A stretch of DNA of 64,000 bases from Fluviicola taffensis DSM 16823. GTDB taxonomy: Bacteria > Bacteroidota > Bacteroidia > Flavobacteriales_D > Crocinitomicaceae. Of the stretch, positions 12,354 through 35,241 are shown piece by piece. Numbering within the stretch: position 1 is the stretch's first letter; every line of letters starts with the position of its first letter. Below the pieces are notes generated by a model. The model searched no databases, was not told the origin of the DNA, and saw only the letters and a program-made list of their open reading frames with translations. The stretch covers positions 4,526,001 to 4,590,000 of the forward strand of contig NC_015321.1 in assembly GCF_000194605.1 (NCBI RefSeq). The letters are read 5' to 3'. The position numbers and the translations under genes are program-made.

Positions 12354-13715
12354 TTATGCCAAAGAAGCAATCACATCCTGACGAGTCAAGATTTTCTTAT
12401 CACCATTAGCGCGCTCTACTATAACCGCCGGTGTTTGCTCATTGATTAATTTCGCTACCTCTTCCAATTTCGCTGTTCCTTGAACTACTGGGAAAGGTTT
12501 TTGCATAATTTTCGAAATCGGCGTGTCTCTCAAAGTAGGATTATCAACCAACAATTGATAAACCTGAGAATCATTCAAAGAACCAACCAATTCTCCGTCT
12601 CTTAAAACTGGAATTTGAGAAATGTTGTATTTACGCATTTTCATAATTGCATGTGAAACTAATTCTTCCGAATACAAGGTTACCAAAGGCAAATCTGCAT
12701 GACGAGCAATTACATCTTCAGCTGTTTTGAACTCTTCTTCCAAGAATCCACGCTCACGCATCCAATCATCGTTAAAAATTTTACCCACATAACGACTTCC
12801 ATGATCGTGGAATAAAACAACCACTACATCATTTTCTGTTAATTGATCTTGCAATTGCAACAATCCACCAATCGCTGCACCAGCAGAATTACCTACAAAA
12901 ATCCCTTCTTCACGCGCCAAACGACGAGTGTAAACGGCTGCATCTTTATCTGTTACTTTTTCAAACAAATCAATCACATCAAAATCTACATTTGCAGGAA
13001 GAATATCTTCTCCAATTCCTTCAGTGATATATGGATAAATCTCATTTTCATCAAAAATTCCAGTTTCCTTGTATTTCTTGAAAACAGAACCGTACGTATC
13101 AATTCCCCAAATTTTGATGTTTGGATTTTTCTCTTTCAAGGATTTTCCAACTCCAGAAATTGTTCCTCCAGTACCAACTCCTACAATAAAGTGCGTTACT
13201 TTCCCTTCTGTTTGTTCCCAAATTTCTGGTCCAGTTTGTTCGTAATGAGCAGTTCTGTTTGATAAATTATCATATTGATTCACATACCAGGAGTTTGGAA
13301 TTTCTTTCGCCAATCGTTTTGATACTGAATAATAAGAACGAGGATCTGAAGGCTCAACAGCAGTTGGACAAACAACTACTTCCGCACCAACAGCACGCAA
13401 AATATCCATTTTCTCTTTCGACTGCTTGTCATTCAAAACGCAAATAAGCTTATAACCTTTGATAATTGCTACCAATGCCAAGCCCATTCCTGTGTTTCCT
13501 GAAGTTCCTTCAATGATTGTGCCTCCTGGTTTTAGAACCCCTGATTTTTCGGCATCTTCTACCATTTTTACAGCCATTCTATCTTTCACCGAGTTTCCTG
13601 GATTCGTTGTCTCAACTTTTGCTAAAACAGTTGCTTTACAGTTTTTTGTGAGCTTGTTCAATTTCACCAAAGGCGTATTACCAATGGTTTCCAATATATT
13701 GTTATAAACTTTCAT
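12354..13715 (-). CDS. Cystathionine beta-synthase-type enzyme with C-terminal CBS pair
   Basis: 453 aa from the ATG at 13715. The frame continues to 13757, but that extension contains the promoter element, and MKVYNNILETIGNTPLVKL is the usual start. Residues ~1-310 are fold-type II PLP domain: NPGNSVKDRMAVK carries the PLP lysine, EGTSGNTGMGLA binds substrate, and GVGTGGTISGVG holds the phosphate. Residues ~330-453 are two CBS motifs that bind adenosyl ligands (SAM activates several homologues). There is no N-terminal haem region. It makes cystathionine from serine and homocysteine, or cysteine from O-acetylserine; context does not settle which. Confidence 0.9.
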   Translation of the reverse strand: MKVYNNILETIGNTPLVKLNKLTKNCKATVLAKVETTNPGNSVKDRMAVKMVEDAEKSGVLKPGGTIIEGTSGNTGMGLALVAIIKGYKLICVLNDKQSKEKMDILRAVGAEVVVCPTAVEPSDPRSYYSVSKRLAKEIPNSWYVNQYDNLSNRTAHYEQTGPEIWEQTEGKVTHFIVGVGTGGTISGVGKSLKEKNPNIKIWGIDTYGSVFKKYKETGIFDENEIYPYITEGIGEDILPANVDFDVIDLFEKVTDKDAAVYTRRLAREEGIFVGNSAGAAIGGLLQLQDQLTENDVVVVLFHDHGSRYVGKIFNDDWMRERGFLEEEFKTAEDVIARHADLPLVTLYSEELVSHAIMKMRKYNISQIPVLRDGELVGSLNDSQVYQLLVDNPTLRDTPISKIMQKPFPVVQGTAKLEEVAKLINEQTPAVIVERANGDKKILTRQDVIASLA

Positions 13716-13730
13716 CAATTGAATTTTACA

Positions 13731-13738
13731 CAAAGATA
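13731..13738 (-). promoter_or_regulatory. -7 promoter element TATCTTTG
   Basis: CAAAGATA on the + strand, an exact consensus match 15 bases upstream of the ATG at 13715. It supports that start over longer frames. Confidence 0.55.
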
Positions 13739-13872
13739 GTTTTAATTCAAAATTCAAAATGTAAAAGTTTGGGTTTCTGATTCAAGTTTTATTGCAATAG
13801 CTATCCAGATTACATTTTGACATTTTTATTGATATCTATTTAAAGCTTCACTTATCTATTTAAATAATCAAA

Positions 13873-30669: not shown

Positions 30670-31836
30670 TTATCTCAGTGCCATTTCAATATCTTCCCAA
30701 ATATCTTCAATATTCTCCAAACCAATACTCAAGCGCACTAATCCGTCTGAAATTCCTACAGCTTCTCGCTCTTCCGATTTCAATTTGCTATGTGTTGTAG
30801 ATGCTGGATGTGTTGCAATACTTCTACTATCACCCAAATTTGGAGTTAATGAAAACAATCCCAATTGATCTAAAAATTTACGTCCAGCTTCCAATCCACC
30901 TTTGATTTGAAACGTCACAATTCCACCACCGTATTCCATTTGGTCTTTTGCGATCACTTGTTGTGGATGAGAATCCAAAAATGGATATTTCACCCAATCA
31001 ACAGATTCATTTCCTTCCAATCGTTTGGCGATTTCAAAGGCTTGCGAGCAATGTTTTTCCATTCTAAGATGCAATGTTTCTAAGGATTTAGAAAGAATCC
31101 ATGCATTGAATGGAGATAATGCAGGTCCGCTGTGTCGTGCAAACCCTTGAATTTTTGCGATAATTTCTTTGGTAGAAACTATCAATCCTCCCAAAACTCT
31201 TCCTTGACCATCCATGTATTTCGTTGCAGAATGAATCACGATATCCGCTCCTAATTTCAAAGGTTGTTGTAAAACAGGAGTCGCAAAACAATTATCTACC
31301 ACCAACAATACATTCTTCGCTATGCAAATTGCAGCTAATCGTTTGATATCGATAATATCCAAGCCTGGATTGGAAGGTGTTTCAATATAAACAATCTTCG
31401 TTTCTGGCTTAATTTCCCGTTCATATCCTTCGTAATCAATTGCATCAACGTAAGTTGTTGTGATTCCCCATTTTGGAAGGATATTTACAAACAACTGATG
31501 CGTGGAACCAAAAACAGATTTCGAAGAAACAATGTGATCTTCGCTTTGAAGCAAGGCTGCAAAAGTGGTGAAAACAGCAGCCATTCCTGTAGCAGTTGCC
31601 CAAGCAGCTTCACCAGATTCTAAACACGCTACTTTCTCCAAGAGTTCATCCACATTTGGATTTGAATAACGCGAATAAATATTGGCTTCTATTTCATCTG
31701 AAAAAGCAGCACGCATTTGCTCTGCATCCTCAAAAACATAACTCGATGTCAAATACAATGGAACGCTGTGTTCAGCTTCTTGTGAACGTTCGTTTTGAAT
31801 ACGGATGGCAAGTGTTTCGTTTCTGTAATTTTTCAT
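30670..31836 (-). CDS. metZ: O-acetyl/succinylhomoserine sulfhydrylase (Cys/Met PLP family)
   Basis: 388 aa. ANIYSRYSNPNVDELLEKVA holds the phosphate-binding YSRxxNP motif, and VIHSATKYMDGQGRVLGG carries the PLP lysine (SATKY). The N-terminal HSVPLYLTSSYVF and the C-terminal GDSRSIATHPASTTH are typical of MetZ/MetB. Direct sulfhydrylation to homocysteine is favoured by its place at the end of a metX-hom operon and by MetZ-like features; cystathionine gamma-synthase cannot be excluded. Its start overlaps the OsmC stop by ATGA. Confidence 0.9.
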   Translation of the reverse strand: MKNYRNETLAIRIQNERSQEAEHSVPLYLTSSYVFEDAEQMRAAFSDEIEANIYSRYSNPNVDELLEKVACLESGEAAWATATGMAAVFTTFAALLQSEDHIVSSKSVFGSTHQLFVNILPKWGITTTYVDAIDYEGYEREIKPETKIVYIETPSNPGLDIIDIKRLAAICIAKNVLLVVDNCFATPVLQQPLKLGADIVIHSATKYMDGQGRVLGGLIVSTKEIIAKIQGFARHSGPALSPFNAWILSKSLETLHLRMEKHCSQAFEIAKRLEGNESVDWVKYPFLDSHPQQVIAKDQMEYGGGIVTFQIKGGLEAGRKFLDQLGLFSLTPNLGDSRSIATHPASTTHSKLKSEEREAVGISDGLVRLSIGLENIEDIWEDIEMALR

Positions 31837-32246
31837 GATTGATGTCTAACTTCTAATTGAATGTTTATAGCAGGATTTAACGATGCAGAAACAGAGCAAT
31901 ATTTTTCATAGCTCAATTGAATAGCGGCATTTGCTTTTTCAATATCTACTTCCTGATTAAAAGTGAATACGAGGTGAATGGTTTCAAATGGAGAAGGAAC
32001 ATCATCTTTGCGATTTGCATCAATGTTCACTTCGTAAAAGCTAACAATTTGTCGTTGTTTTTGCAAAATCAACAAAATATCGATGGACATACAACCTGCC
32101 AATGAGCTCGCTAATACTTCCATAGGTCTCATTCCTTTGTTTTTTCCTCCAATTTTTTCCGTTGCATCCATTTTCAGGGAAATACCTGATTCATTTTTAA
32201 CTTCCAGTACGAAAGGAGATTCTGTTAATTTCAATTCTAATTTCAT
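31833..32246 (-). CDS. OsmC family protein
   Basis: 137 aa. GKNKGMRPMEVLASSLAGCM contains the OsmC/Ohr fold helix with the active-site Cys context (SLAGCMSIDIL), and the second cysteine is in KYCSVSASLNPAI. This pattern is the peroxidase/thiol-handling OsmC group. Its position inside the methionine operon, with ATGA overlaps at both ends, suggests a task linked to sulfide or thiol metabolism, such as handling reactive sulfur or acting as a hydrolase of hydroperoxides. No established role in methionine synthesis. Confidence 0.88.
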   Translation of the reverse strand: MKLELKLTESPFVLEVKNESGISLKMDATEKIGGKNKGMRPMEVLASSLAGCMSIDILLILQKQRQIVSFYEVNIDANRKDDVPSPFETIHLVFTFNQEVDIEKANAAIQLSYEKYCSVSASLNPAINIQLEVRHQS

Positions 32247-33490
32247 GACAATTCCTCAATTAAATGTGCTGATTTTTCAGTAGAAATATCTGTGTTTTTT
32301 GTCAATTGAATACTATCTGGAATAACTGCCAAGAAATAATCAGGTGCATTGTTCCAATCTTGCTTAGAAATTTCCTCATACGAAATGATTCCAATTTTAT
32401 AGCTATGAGATTGTCCGGTATACGTTTCATGTGTTTCAATAAACGTTATCTGATCCAATTTTTCCTGACTGGTTGCACTCAAGTACACTTTCAGCGAATA
32501 ATCACTATCAAAACTCAAGTGTTCTTCTGTTTTTGATTTTTTGTATTCGTACGCATAGTCAAACTGCAAAGCCGAAATATCTGAAAGAACCGCACTTGCC
32601 GTTGGGTGACTTCCGGCACCTTTTCCTAAGAACAATTGCTTATCGGAAAACAAAGCTTCAACAACCACTGCATTAAACTCGTTTTCGACATTAAATGCAA
32701 AGTGATTATTCGGAATGATATGCGGAGCTACAAAACCAACTATTTGATTATTAATTCGGGTTCCAAATGCCAATAATTTAATTTTCAATCCTTTTTCGCG
32801 TGCATATCTTGCATCCCAATCTTTCAACTGACGAATTCCGTAATTCCAAACGGCATCTTGCTTCGTAGTGAATCCAAAAGCATGTTTCAGTAATAAAACC
32901 AACTTATATTTTGCGTCAAAACCGTCTACATCTGATGTTGGATCCAATTCTGCGAAACCTAGATCTTGTGCATTTTTCAATGCTTCATCGAAAGATTCAC
33001 CTTCCGCCGTCTTTGTGAGAATGTAATTCGTTGTTCCGTTTACAATTCCACTGATATTTGAAAGTGAATCGTTGTTATAATATTCCTCCAAGTTTCGAAT
33101 AATTGGAATGGAACCACCAACTGAAGCTTCGTATAGAAATGAAACATTATTTTCTTTTGCCAACGAAACCAGTTCATTCAGGTGATATGCAATCAGTTTT
33201 TTATTTGCGGAGACTACATGTTTTCCAGCTCTTAGTGCTGTGGTGACAATTTCATAAGCAGCTTCTGAATCATTGATTAATTCCACCACCACATTGATCT
33301 CATCATCTTGCAAAATTCGATTTGAATCCGTACTAAAGTAACTTGAATCAATGATCCGTTTTTTGCTCAAATCTTTGATAACAATGTGCTTGATCGATGC
33401 TTGAAGCAAGGTTGTTTTATTTAATACTTCGTATAATCCTGTTCCAACACAGCCGAAACCAAATAATCCTATTGTGAGTTGATTTTTCAT
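32243..33490 (-). CDS. Homoserine dehydrogenase
   Basis: 415 aa. NAD(P)-binding GLFGFGCVGTGLYEVL at the N-terminus; VVSANKKLIAYHLNELVSLA and YEASVGGSIPIIRNLEEYYN (with GGSIPI) and GIVNGTTNYILT followed by FAELDPTSDVDGFDAKYKL are catalytic-domain signatures. Residues ~330-415 are a short, poorly conserved C-terminal region that may stand for the ACT-like regulatory part. It supplies homoserine from aspartate semialdehyde for MetX, 1 base upstream. Confidence 0.93.
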   Translation of the reverse strand: MKNQLTIGLFGFGCVGTGLYEVLNKTTLLQASIKHIVIKDLSKKRIIDSSYFSTDSNRILQDDEINVVVELINDSEAAYEIVTTALRAGKHVVSANKKLIAYHLNELVSLAKENNVSFLYEASVGGSIPIIRNLEEYYNNDSLSNISGIVNGTTNYILTKTAEGESFDEALKNAQDLGFAELDPTSDVDGFDAKYKLVLLLKHAFGFTTKQDAVWNYGIRQLKDWDARYAREKGLKIKLLAFGTRINNQIVGFVAPHIIPNNHFAFNVENEFNAVVVEALFSDKQLFLGKGAGSHPTASAVLSDISALQFDYAYEYKKSKTEEHLSFDSDYSLKVYLSATSQEKLDQITFIETHETYTGQSHSYKIGIISYEEISKQDWNNAPDYFLAVIPDSIQLTKNTDISTEKSAHLIEELS

Positions 33491-33491
33491 C

Positions 33492-34538
33492 TTAATTGTT
33501 TTTTAAAAATTGTGTAATGTGATTTGCCAAAATTTCTGTTTCTACTAAAAATCCATCGTGACCAAAATCAGATTTTAGGCGAATAAGTCTCGCATTTGGC
33601 AATTGTTTGGTCAGTTCTTCCTGTTCTGTGATTGGAAACAATAAATCGGTGTCGATTCCAATGACCAAAGCAGGCATGAGGCATTTTCCCAAAACTTTTT
33701 CGTCTCTATTTCTAAAAACATTGTGCGAATCCATTGCTTTTGATAAAACCCAATAACTAAATGCATTGAAGCGATTTGCCAGCTTTTCTCCTTGGTACTT
33801 TTGATAGGAACTTGCTTTGAAGCTGTCGAATTTGGAATCAGTTTCTTCACTTTGTGTGATTTTATAACCTTCATACGTTCGGTAACTCAACATTCCAATC
33901 GCTCGAGCAGCTTTCAATCCTTCTATTCCGCCATTTTCTTGTTTGCTATAAAATGTTGAATCTGCTTGAATTGCCAATCTTTGGGCCTCATTAAATGCAA
34001 TACCAAATGGAGAATGCTTCAAGTTCGTTGCAATTGGGATAATGCTACCGATTTTCTCTGGAATTAGTAAAGCCCATTCTAAAAGCTGTTGTCCGCCCAA
34101 AGAAGCGCCAATCAAGGTGTGAATCCATTCGATTTTCAGTTCTTTCCTCACCAATTCCAATCCAAAAACCATGTCCCGAATGGTCAGAACTGGAAAAGAA
34201 TCAAACTGTTCTTCGAGTAATAAATCGGTACTCAAGGGACCAGTTGAACCGTAAGCGCTTCCTAGAACATTGACCGCAACGATGAAATATTCTGCTGGAT
34301 CAAAACATTTTCCTGCTCCAAATAATCCGCCCCACCATTCTTGTACACGGTGATTTCCCGTAAGCGCGTGGCATACCCAAACGACGTTTGATTGGTCTTC
34401 ATTCAGCTTTCCCCAAGTTTGATAAGCCAATGAGAGACTGGAAAGTACCTTTCCCGATTCTAATTGAAATTCGGATTTAGAAGAAAAAATAAACTGTGTT
34501 GGCTGCAAAAGCGAAGCCTTCGAATAAATTGTTGACAT
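33492..34538 (-). CDS. metX: Homoserine O-acetyltransferase
   Basis: 348 aa. Alpha/beta-hydrolase fold with LAYQTWGKLNEDQSNVVWVC, HALTGNHRVQEWWGGL (oxyanion region), GSAYGSTGPLS and nucleophile elbow GASLGGQQLLEW; Asp and His are in IGIDTDLLFP and FGHDGFL. It activates homoserine with acetyl-CoA (or succinyl-CoA) as first committed step of methionine synthesis. First gene of metX-hom-osmC-metZ. Its translation start is immediately preceded by the 3' arm of a pairing with an upstream poly-Cys ORF, and a SAM riboswitch lies further upstream. Confidence 0.93.
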   Translation of the reverse strand: MSTIYSKASLLQPTQFIFSSKSEFQLESGKVLSSLSLAYQTWGKLNEDQSNVVWVCHALTGNHRVQEWWGGLFGAGKCFDPAEYFIVAVNVLGSAYGSTGPLSTDLLLEEQFDSFPVLTIRDMVFGLELVRKELKIEWIHTLIGASLGGQQLLEWALLIPEKIGSIIPIATNLKHSPFGIAFNEAQRLAIQADSTFYSKQENGGIEGLKAARAIGMLSYRTYEGYKITQSEETDSKFDSFKASSYQKYQGEKLANRFNAFSYWVLSKAMDSHNVFRNRDEKVLGKCLMPALVIGIDTDLLFPITEQEELTKQLPNARLIRLKSDFGHDGFLVETEILANHITQFLKNN

Positions 34539-34539
34539 G

Positions 34540-34603
34540 AAATGTGTTGTGAAATATAAATTATTGAACTGAAAGAATTAACAACAGCAACAACAACACA
34601 TTT
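34540..34603 (-). promoter_or_regulatory. Long-range hairpin joining the poly-Cys uORF start to the metX start region
   Basis: On the minus strand AAATGTGTTGT (34603-34593, covering the uORF start codon and first Cys codons) is perfectly complementary to ACAACACATTT (34550-34540), which ends two bases before the metX ATG. Eleven base pairs, 42-base loop. The pairing would hide the metX initiation region, and a ribosome on the uORF would disrupt it. Confidence 0.7.
34578..34601 (-). CDS. Leader peptide uORF: Met followed by six cysteines
   Basis: ATG TGT TGT TGT TGC TGT TGT TAA, eight codons, 39 bases before metX. Six consecutive Cys codons by chance are very unlikely in this AT-rich genome. 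Poly-Cys upstream ORFs are known as cysteine-sensing attenuators in actinobacteria, and the same logic is proposed here: ribosomes slow on Cys codons when charged tRNA-Cys is low. Too short to be a functional protein. Confidence 0.72.
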   Translation of the reverse strand: MCCCCCC

Positions 34604-34629
34604 TCGTAAGAAGAGAAATAGATAAAGAC

Positions 34630-34645
34630 GACTCGAATTTGAGTC
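34630..34645 (-). promoter_or_regulatory. Hairpin between SAM riboswitch and the poly-Cys uORF
   Basis: GACTC (34645-34641, minus strand) and GAGTC (34634-34630) form a 5-bp stem with loop AAATTC, followed by a pyrimidine-rich tract toward 34605. It may be the expression-platform terminator of the SAM riboswitch; the T tract is weak. Confidence 0.4.
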
Positions 34646-34719
34646 TGAAGTTCGGATTTGAATGTTTCGCACTTTTCATAAACGCCATTTTTATATTCGT
34701 CTGACTGCAACATGCATCA

Positions 34720-34835
34720 AACTCGGAAGTTGGCACCGGTTTTCCAATCCACCCGAACTATTCGGAAGAACTTAAAGTTGGTTGCCAGAGGGTCAAAAAG
34801 TCCGTCTCTCGCCTCTTCTGTATAAACTAGTTGTA
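34720..34835 (-). ncRNA. SAM riboswitch (S-box type) of the metX operon
   Basis: Minus-strand core: AGAGGCGAGAGACGGAC, then GACCCTCTGGCAACC (AGAGG pairs with CCTCT), a hairpin CCGAATAGTTCGG (about 34764-34752), and TTGG...GGTGCCAACTTCC, the typical GCAACC and GGTGCCAA signatures of the S-box (SAM-I) class. Position upstream of metX fits repression of methionine synthesis by S-adenosylmethionine. The exact boundaries, and the P1 stem in particular, are approximate. Confidence 0.75.
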
Positions 34836-34856
34836 TTCTCGCTTAGAATTACGGTA

Positions 34857-34887
34857 CAAATGTTCTAAAAATAAATGGATAAATCAA
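34857..34887 (-). promoter_or_regulatory. Promoter of the methionine operon: TTG-N20-AACATTTG
   Basis: On the minus strand TTG (34887-34885), 20-base spacer, AACATTTG (34864-34857), one mismatch to TAnnTTTG. It would start transcription just before the riboswitch. Confidence 0.5.
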
Positions 34888-34989
34888 AATTTCTTGAGAA
34901 AAAAATGAAAATAACTGGAATACCAAGAAGTGGATTGTTCTAATTCTTGTAGATGATTTTAACAGTTTTCGCTTAGTATGAATTCGTTG

Positions 34990-35241
34990 GAAAATAGACT
35001 CATGTCTATCCGTCTTTTGGAGTGGAGATTTGTTGGTTATAAACTGAAATAGTTACTGTTCCCTATCAAGACTGTTTCAATACTCCGAAAGATTTGAGGA
35101 AGAATCATCCCCTTAAACGCCCAATTATACTGGCGAATAGACTCATGTCTATCTGTCTTTTTGAGTCGAAGTTGTTGGGCTTAGAATCGCTATTTTACCA
35201 ATCGCTCTTGAAAACCATTTTTAACACTCCGAAATATTCAC
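34990..35241. repeat. Diverged direct repeat of the sdaA 3' flank
   Basis: Two units, about 34990-35099 and 35133-35241, share AATAGACTCATGTCTATC plus TGTCTTTT/CGTCTTTT and end in AACACTCCGAAATATTC versus CAATACTCCGAAAGATTT. The second unit runs into the last codons of sdaA; the first carries a pseudo-copy of that end (minus strand reading NLSEY-stop against the real NISEC-stop). Each contains the hairpin ATAGACTCATGTCTAT (34994-35009 and 35137-35152). The stretch 34888-34989 has no gene that I can support. Confidence 0.7.

Follow-up and report, generated by a model that had tools for sequence, protein, structure and literature searches.

A SAM-I riboswitch followed by a cysteine-rich leader ORF: a candidate two-input control of metX and metY in Fluviicola taffensis and other Bacteroidota

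What does a run of six cysteine codons do in front of a methionine biosynthetic gene? In the 64,000-nucleotide stretch of the Fluviicola taffensis DSM 16823 genome analysed here (the window), a first-pass annotation made from the letters alone had singled out a Met-Cys6 frame 39 bases before metX, judged it too unusual to be due to chance and proposed that it is the shortest possible sensor of charged tRNA-Cys. The frame itself is as described: ATGTGTTGTTGTTGCTGTTGTTAA, positions 34601-34578 of the minus strand read 5' to 3', translates to MCCCCCC followed by a stop codon, and 39 nt separate this stop from the ATG of a metX-like ORF (34538-33492). The judgement on chance also stands, ATG(TGY)6 occurring once in the window and in 0/100 dinucleotide shuffles of it, and the shorter ATG(TGY)4 having a single occurrence in the 4,633,577-base genome (reversed control, 0). 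An alternative in which the run is a TGT microsatellite that arose by chance or repeat expansion and happens to be open has only the repeat-like codons in its favor; it is contradicted by the shuffles and by the conservation presented below, and we give it next to no credence. We refer to Met-Cys6-stop (34578..34601, minus strand) as the presumed stall site.

The gene behind this frame heads a cluster on the minus strand that consists of the metX-like gene of the homoserine O-acyltransferase family (33492..34538; best NCBIfam family TIGR01392), a homoserine dehydrogenase gene 1 nt behind it (32243..33490; NF004976, 347.5 bits, cut-off 205), a gene for an OsmC-family protein that overlaps the latter (31833..32246; NF008009, 63.9 bits against a cut-off of 138, a family resemblance only) and, overlapping the osmC-like gene, a metZ-like O-acylhomoserine sulfhydrylase gene (30670..31836; NF006003, 518.4 bits). 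The names metX and sulfhydrylase are those of the best families, whose curated cut-offs both genes miss (318 against 500 bits and 518 against 522 bits, respectively). A possible, weak promoter was recognized by eye at 34857..34889 of the same strand, made up of TTTTG at 34889-34885, which we take to be the -33 element, and AACATTTG at 34864-34857. The latter differs by one base from the flavobacterial consensus TAnnTTTG as given in PMC9723704; a promoter scan comprising only sigma-70 types returned no match at 34857..34889. We also note an 18-mer with an inverted repeat, AATAGACTCATGTCTATC, at 34993-35010 and 35136-35153, between the riboswitch described next and the upstream serine ammonia-lyase gene, of which the genome holds four further copies with one mismatch (reversed control, 0).

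Overlooked in the first pass was a SAM-I riboswitch aptamer (RF00162) at 34688..34828 on the minus strand, matched by cmscan over the full model (1-108) at 46.0 bits against a gathering score of 44.4. It lies 5' of the metX-like operon on the same strand, a position in front of methionine-pathway genes that is expected of RF00162, and is one of two SAM riboswitches above threshold in the genome, the other scoring 75.3 bits (G000:C1:1195601-1195725). Among the metX loci of the genus, 11 of 12 carry RF00162 above threshold and the remaining one (L057) falls slightly under it at 42.7 bits. At gathering scores, Rfam yields no other RNA in the whole window and, in particular, no T box. With this riboswitch in place, the Cys run would no longer be a lone cysteine sensor but the downstream member of a serial pair: the idea of a cysteine sensor survives, that of a single one does not.

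Nor is the peptide minimal. Met-Cys6-stop forms the last seven codons and the stop of a 33-codon ORF (34578..34679, minus strand; MKSAKHSNPNFRLKFESSLSISLLTKMCCCCCC followed by a stop) which begins 8 nt behind the aptamer and has in-frame counterparts in the genus. An alternative in-frame start lies at the ATG at 34688, ATGs further upstream vary between loci, and the leaders read range from 25 to 56 codons in length. A peptide consisting of Met and six Cys was considered and rejected, the ORF running upstream in frame with a conserved start behind the aptamer; the isolated ATG-(TGY)6-TAA is not the conserved unit, and the proposal of a shortest possible sensor has to be dropped.

The pairing of aptamer and leader recurs well beyond the window. 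Within the genus, 12 of 14 genomes have a metX-type SAM riboswitch, and in all 12 it is followed by an in-frame leader with three to six Cys in its tail; the leader of L047 is only 25 codons long, and in L051 and L054 the five Cys are followed by a terminal Arg. A scan of 84,980 species for an aptamer core, an ATG and (TGY)3 yielded 40 loci, in all of which an ATG situated 25-75 nt behind the core shares the frame of the run, the shortest ORF forms having 29-42 codons. The pattern demanded the run, and the scan therefore tests the frame and not the frequency of the arrangement; the frame, which was not demanded, is a further point against a microsatellite. In one leader (L109) the Cys run is not at the very end. 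Two of the record names concerned look wrong, that of a 'Kuenenia' MAG (L102) whose leader is nearly the same as those of a Flavobacteriales locus (L097) and a Fluviicola locus (L111), and that of 'Glaciecola amylolytica' (L103, CP034120.1). When the aptamer core alone was searched for in 395 genomes of the class, 18 matches were obtained, four of which lack a riboswitch context by eye (L130, L135, L141, L142). A leader is present in 11 of the 14 riboswitches of this core-only set; two of those without one are metH sites, and the third is L127. At L127, a SAM riboswitch and a five-codon ORF, MKHVF, stand before a different, glycosidase-like gene (named by eye); this ORF is perhaps a decayed leader.

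The contrast between metX/metY and metH is sharpest in family f45, where 59 loci, one of them a repeat (L196 of L162), gave 58 riboswitches, all of which were read. These were listed under stricter filters, at which weak matches are lost, and the leader ORF was chosen, by the same rule for metX/metY and metH, from those whose ATG lies 20-110 nt behind the core, the one richest in tail Cys being taken; the seven of the 59 loci in which the pattern found no core were all metH sites and were examined over a wider stretch. A Cys-tailed leader is found at 20/20 of the listed metX/metY riboswitches, with at least three Cys in the last 14 residues at 18 of them and two at L158 and L160. At metH the corresponding count is 0/38 (18/20 versus 0/38, Fisher p 4e-13, a guide only, the loci being related); one of the seven sites just mentioned (L172) contains, 194 nt from the start of the aptamer, an unrelated ORF of 20 residues that includes two separate Cys. 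This contrast likewise contradicts a microsatellite. A separate metH control consisted of the 43 top-scoring SAM riboswitch loci fetched, a subset of all matches, 41 of which were named metH by script (L035 and L059 were left unnamed; L035 reads as metH): at least three tail Cys were found in 0/41, which brings the metH riboswitches examined without such a leader to 79 of 79. As to background, at least three tail Cys occur in 4 of the 336 remaining short ORFs of the window and in 12/1273 in 72 mostly metH loci.

Family f1 is more varied. From 51 of 55 match rows (those dropped being L020, at a contig edge, and the weak or partial G047, G041:C25 and G021) we obtained 51 regions upstream of metX, 43 with a SAM core and eight with none. 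A leader with at least three tail Cys is present at 27 of the 43 SAM-preceded genes; three loci have two tail Cys (L211, L212, L224), one has a single tail Cys (L029), and one is ambiguous and has no short ORF (L216). In the other 11 the aptamer apparently lies directly at the metX start without a leader: four have a short ORF with fewer than three tail Cys and an aptamer that seems to abut metX (L208, L210, L213, L221), and seven have no short ORF and belong to one genus, g2. Given that 11 of 43 genes seem to do without a leader, SAM control does not require one. The g2 loci (L011, L014, L016, L017, L018, L228, L229), with the aptamer directly before the metX AUG, constitute a natural leaderless control.

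What is conserved has the marks of a coding sequence. Relatives in other genera and families retain both the frame and the Cys codons, the outcome on which the first pass had made its sensor depend, and the Cys codons of 47 leaders are split almost evenly between TGT and TGC (136:134). In-frame Met codons break up the Cys run (e.g. CMCCCCMCC, MMACCMCCCCCMC), and gaps in the alignment of eight close genus loci (A2) are three bases long. In the last 12 residues of the 47 leaders, Cys accounts for 258/564 positions against 12/1131 elsewhere, an enrichment that is partly by construction because the leaders were chosen for a Cys-bearing tail. This does not apply to Met, which was not a selection criterion and accounts for 92/564 tail positions against 4/1131 elsewhere. 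The f45 tails give Met at 63/240 against 0/607 elsewhere, and Cys, the criterion of selection, at 97/240. The enrichment of Met in the tails is therefore suggestive of a peptide that probably reads two sulfur amino acids, Cys and Met.

A Cys- and Met-rich peptide might alternatively be active itself, for example as a microprotein with a metal-binding or redox function, or by arresting the ribosome as a nascent chain in response to some other signal. Met together with Cys is a metal-binding composition, and Cys runs reach up to eight (L121). Against such a function, the sequence outside the tail differs widely between leaders, as do their lengths (25-56) and the number of tail Cys, and the site is fixed between aptamer and metX/metY and absent at metH, as would be expected of a leader acting in cis. 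We regard an active peptide as improbable. A leader that senses the supply of its tail amino acids, as the first pass had supposed in proposing a sensor of charged tRNA-Cys, is the most likely reading of a frame and Cys run kept across families; what has to be amended is that the sensor is not minimal and follows an aptamer.

How could such a sensor reach metX? In the window, the 11 bases directly upstream of the metX ATG (ACAACACATTT, 34540..34550, minus strand) pair in predicted folds with the Cys codons, the 5' arm (AAATGTGTTGT, 34593..34603, minus strand) overlapping the first of these codons and being the exact reverse complement of 34550-34540. Relatives keep the helix by G-U wobbles (e.g. 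L055, L057) or, in L048, form it at this position with another sequence. Of the 12 genus folds, nine have an unpaired fraction of the metX start region that rises from 0.13-0.33 when the RNA is free to 0.44-0.72 when the Cys codons are occupied, the window being at the low end of this effect (0.33 to 0.44); the folds of the other three loci (L047, L049, L050) show no opening. Over 17 cluster representatives, the leader tail pairs more strongly with its own gene start (mean -11.9 kcal/mol) than with re-paired partners (-9.6 kcal/mol; p 0.0001); an initial duplex test, which covered 47 loci, yielded a mean z of -0.99 (sem 0.20) with mixed results at single loci. The pairing in the window is not exceptional when taken alone (fold z -1.06; duplex p 0.25 versus shuffles; own versus re-paired z -0.62).

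These folds bear on a simpler explanation, namely that the leader provides translational coupling only: it would bring ribosomes to metX and melt the helix, and its Cys codons would be there for RNA pairing and not for sensing. In eight of the nine responsive genus loci (the exception being L048), the predicted opening of the metX start is about as large with a ribosome at the stop codon as with a stalled one, and the fold therefore does not separate stalling from plain translation. Moreover, the first four Cys codons are invariant among the eight loci of alignment A2 even at third positions (TGTTGTTGTTGC), as an RNA constraint would give and as fits a constraint on the RNA in addition to that on the peptide. 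Pairing on its own does not readily account, however, for an amino-acid run that is kept across lineages while its pairing partner moves or is missing, for the balanced use of TGT and TGC, for the in-frame Met codons that interrupt the run, or for the retention of tail Cys by 20/20 f45 metX/metY leaders with a different RNA layout. Coupling without sensing is in our view unlikely, if less so than an active peptide.

We also considered a single pairing scheme common to all lineages and rejected it, metY-type loci having no start pairing and the f45 helices being unclear over 22 clusters. At the metY loci with long spacers, no pairing of the leader with the gene start region was found. Five loci of the metY type (L088, L093, L101, L110, L119; L099 is similar) display by eye a hairpin with a GGGCCC-containing loop between the leader stop and the gene; an Rfam scan of 16 loci including these five returned SAM and one tRNA only. 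In the spacer between leader and metY of L165, ATTATCA-type copies are arranged head to tail. In many of the 20 f45 folds, the bases behind the stop have two possible partners, the Met/Cys codons of the leader on one side and a segment further downstream on the other. These helices (1:2 and 2:3) beat re-paired partners over 19 loci (0.0002 and 0/5000, respectively), with values of 0.03-0.17 across 22 clusters; the f45 leader alignment (A3) was too poor for pair counting and was left out, and A1 was likewise uncounted. This predicted layout resembles a classical attenuator with competing helices, which are all that we claim for it, no clear terminator being seen by eye in the f45 loci. On account of it, lineages seem to have different output stages.

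In the window, too, a search of 34400-35220 found no intrinsic terminator between leader and metX. The sole terminator-like site in that interval (one found, 0.6 expected) lies inside the leader ORF and coincides with a small hairpin, GACTC-AAATTC-GAGTC (34630..34645, minus strand; A2 columns 35-50). Across the eight loci of A2, 95% of its cells are paired and four of its five pairs have changed on both sides; its covariation score of 0.786 compares with 0.268 for shuffled alignments, is reached by 0/500 shuffles and exceeds those of slid controls (at most 0.150). It is perhaps a pause hairpin. Among the features of a leader-peptide attenuator, the locus displays a run of codons for a pathway amino acid and a conserved frame, and lacks a terminator of the transcriptional type.

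From the aptamer, the ORF with its frame and conservation, the association with metX/metY and not metH, and the complementarity of tail and gene start, all of them features of the sequence, we infer that the leader is translated, that ribosomes stall on it, that SAM acts on its initiation and in which direction control runs. The SAM-I aptamer would control the initiation of ribosomes on the leader ORF just behind it, low SAM permitting translation. A shortage of charged Cys-tRNA would then slow the translating ribosome at the Met-Cys6 end; in other lineages a shortage of Met-tRNA may do so as well, because the tails there hold several Met codons. Without a ribosome, the metX start would be masked by pairing of the first Cys codons with the bases immediately 5' of the AUG, and a ribosome held on these codons would keep the helix open such that metX is translated. 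The output of metX would accordingly be highest at low SAM and low cysteine, and lowest at high SAM. We put the probability of this reading, in which the aptamer gates the 33-codon leader and a ribosome slowed at the Cys codons exposes the metX start, at roughly 0.7. Somewhat less secure, yet still favored, is its extension to many Bacteroidota, in which metX or metY would be governed by a serial gate leading from a SAM-I riboswitch through a Cys/Met-rich leader to the enzyme, with both inputs kept and an output that has diverged between start masking and competing helices.

Why cysteine should be monitored at a methionine gene may be explained by the gene content of this organism. No cysE match over the cut-off was found in the genome (best 39 bits against 210). 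A cystathionine beta-synthase-like gene is present at a separate locus (12354..13757, minus strand; TIGR01137, about 484 bits, cut-off 510), along with a second PLP enzyme belonging to the transsulfuration family, which is full-length and best matched as cystathionine gamma-synthase (539 bits, cut-off 513) and next as cystathionine gamma-lyase (499 bits, cut-off 594). Together, the lack of cysE and the presence of these two genes indicate that MetX probably feeds cysteine too, and homocysteine from the MetX route may supply cysteine here in addition to methionine and SAM. Two end products would call for two sensors; metH only remethylates, for which SAM alone would suffice.

For its first half, this candidate riboswitch-gated cysteine/methionine leader is a member of RF00162; as a whole it has partial counterparts elsewhere. 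The described SAM-I/T-box tandem, found before metX and metY and predicted to follow NOT-A-AND-B logic, likewise consists of a SAM-I aptamer and a second element that reads tRNA charging. The second element differs in being here a predicted leader-peptide ORF that reads Cys (and Met) codons, with no T box by Rfam, so that the Bacteroidota arrangement would be a T-box-free counterpart of the tandem. Mycobacterial poly-Cys uORFs, as described in PMC1262725, are also short ORFs with a Cys run near the stop before sulfur genes, and such a uORF was reported to be a cysteine-responsive attenuator (Canestrari et al. 2020 as cited in PMC9031893). They are described as leaderless and, in the passages of these sources that deal with them, no riboswitch is mentioned, whereas the ORF found here is in Bacteroidota, behind a SAM-I aptamer and before metX/metY. 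Leaderless initiation, with an AUG at or near the mRNA 5' end, seems not to apply to the locus, in which a 141-nt aptamer precedes the leader AUG. The uORFC-8-2 before cysS in Rhodobacterales (PMC8632094), a proposed sensor of tRNA-Cys charging through Cys codons, differs in having two such codons, an intrinsic terminator and, in its described motif, no riboswitch. Translational control at a distance is known from the SAM-II riboswitch of Sinorhizobium metA, whose start lies 74 nt downstream (PMC9373788); that riboswitch is of another class, its AUG1 and AUG2 belong to one gene and share a reading frame, and the description in that paper includes no Cys leader ORF.

The first-pass annotation knew of no described poly-Cys leader in Bacteroidota, and a literature search, mostly over papers outside subscription, similarly yielded no title in which a SAM riboswitch is combined with a Cys leader peptide in this phylum. 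Hints of leader-peptide attenuation ahead of amino-acid operons were reported from a flavobacterial transcriptome (PMC9723704), and short ORFs reminiscent of leader peptides from a map of Bacteroides thetaiotaomicron (PMC7366714); in the portions consulted, neither names the present case, nor does such a tandem figure in those of the structured-RNA surveys PMC2864571 and PMC6429828.

The recurrence of aptamer and Cys leader across many relatives suggests that two gauges in series set the output of the operon. If true, this would be a serial logic gate of natural origin, its riboswitch acting on a sensor peptide and not on the enzyme, and Bacteroidota would gain a tRNA-charging sensor at metX/metY, where the described tandem elsewhere uses a T box. 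It makes for a testable claim on leader-peptide control in a phylum in which, as far as our literature search shows, little of it has been tested. For F. taffensis, it would link the supply of SAM to that of cysteine at the branch point that may lead to both.
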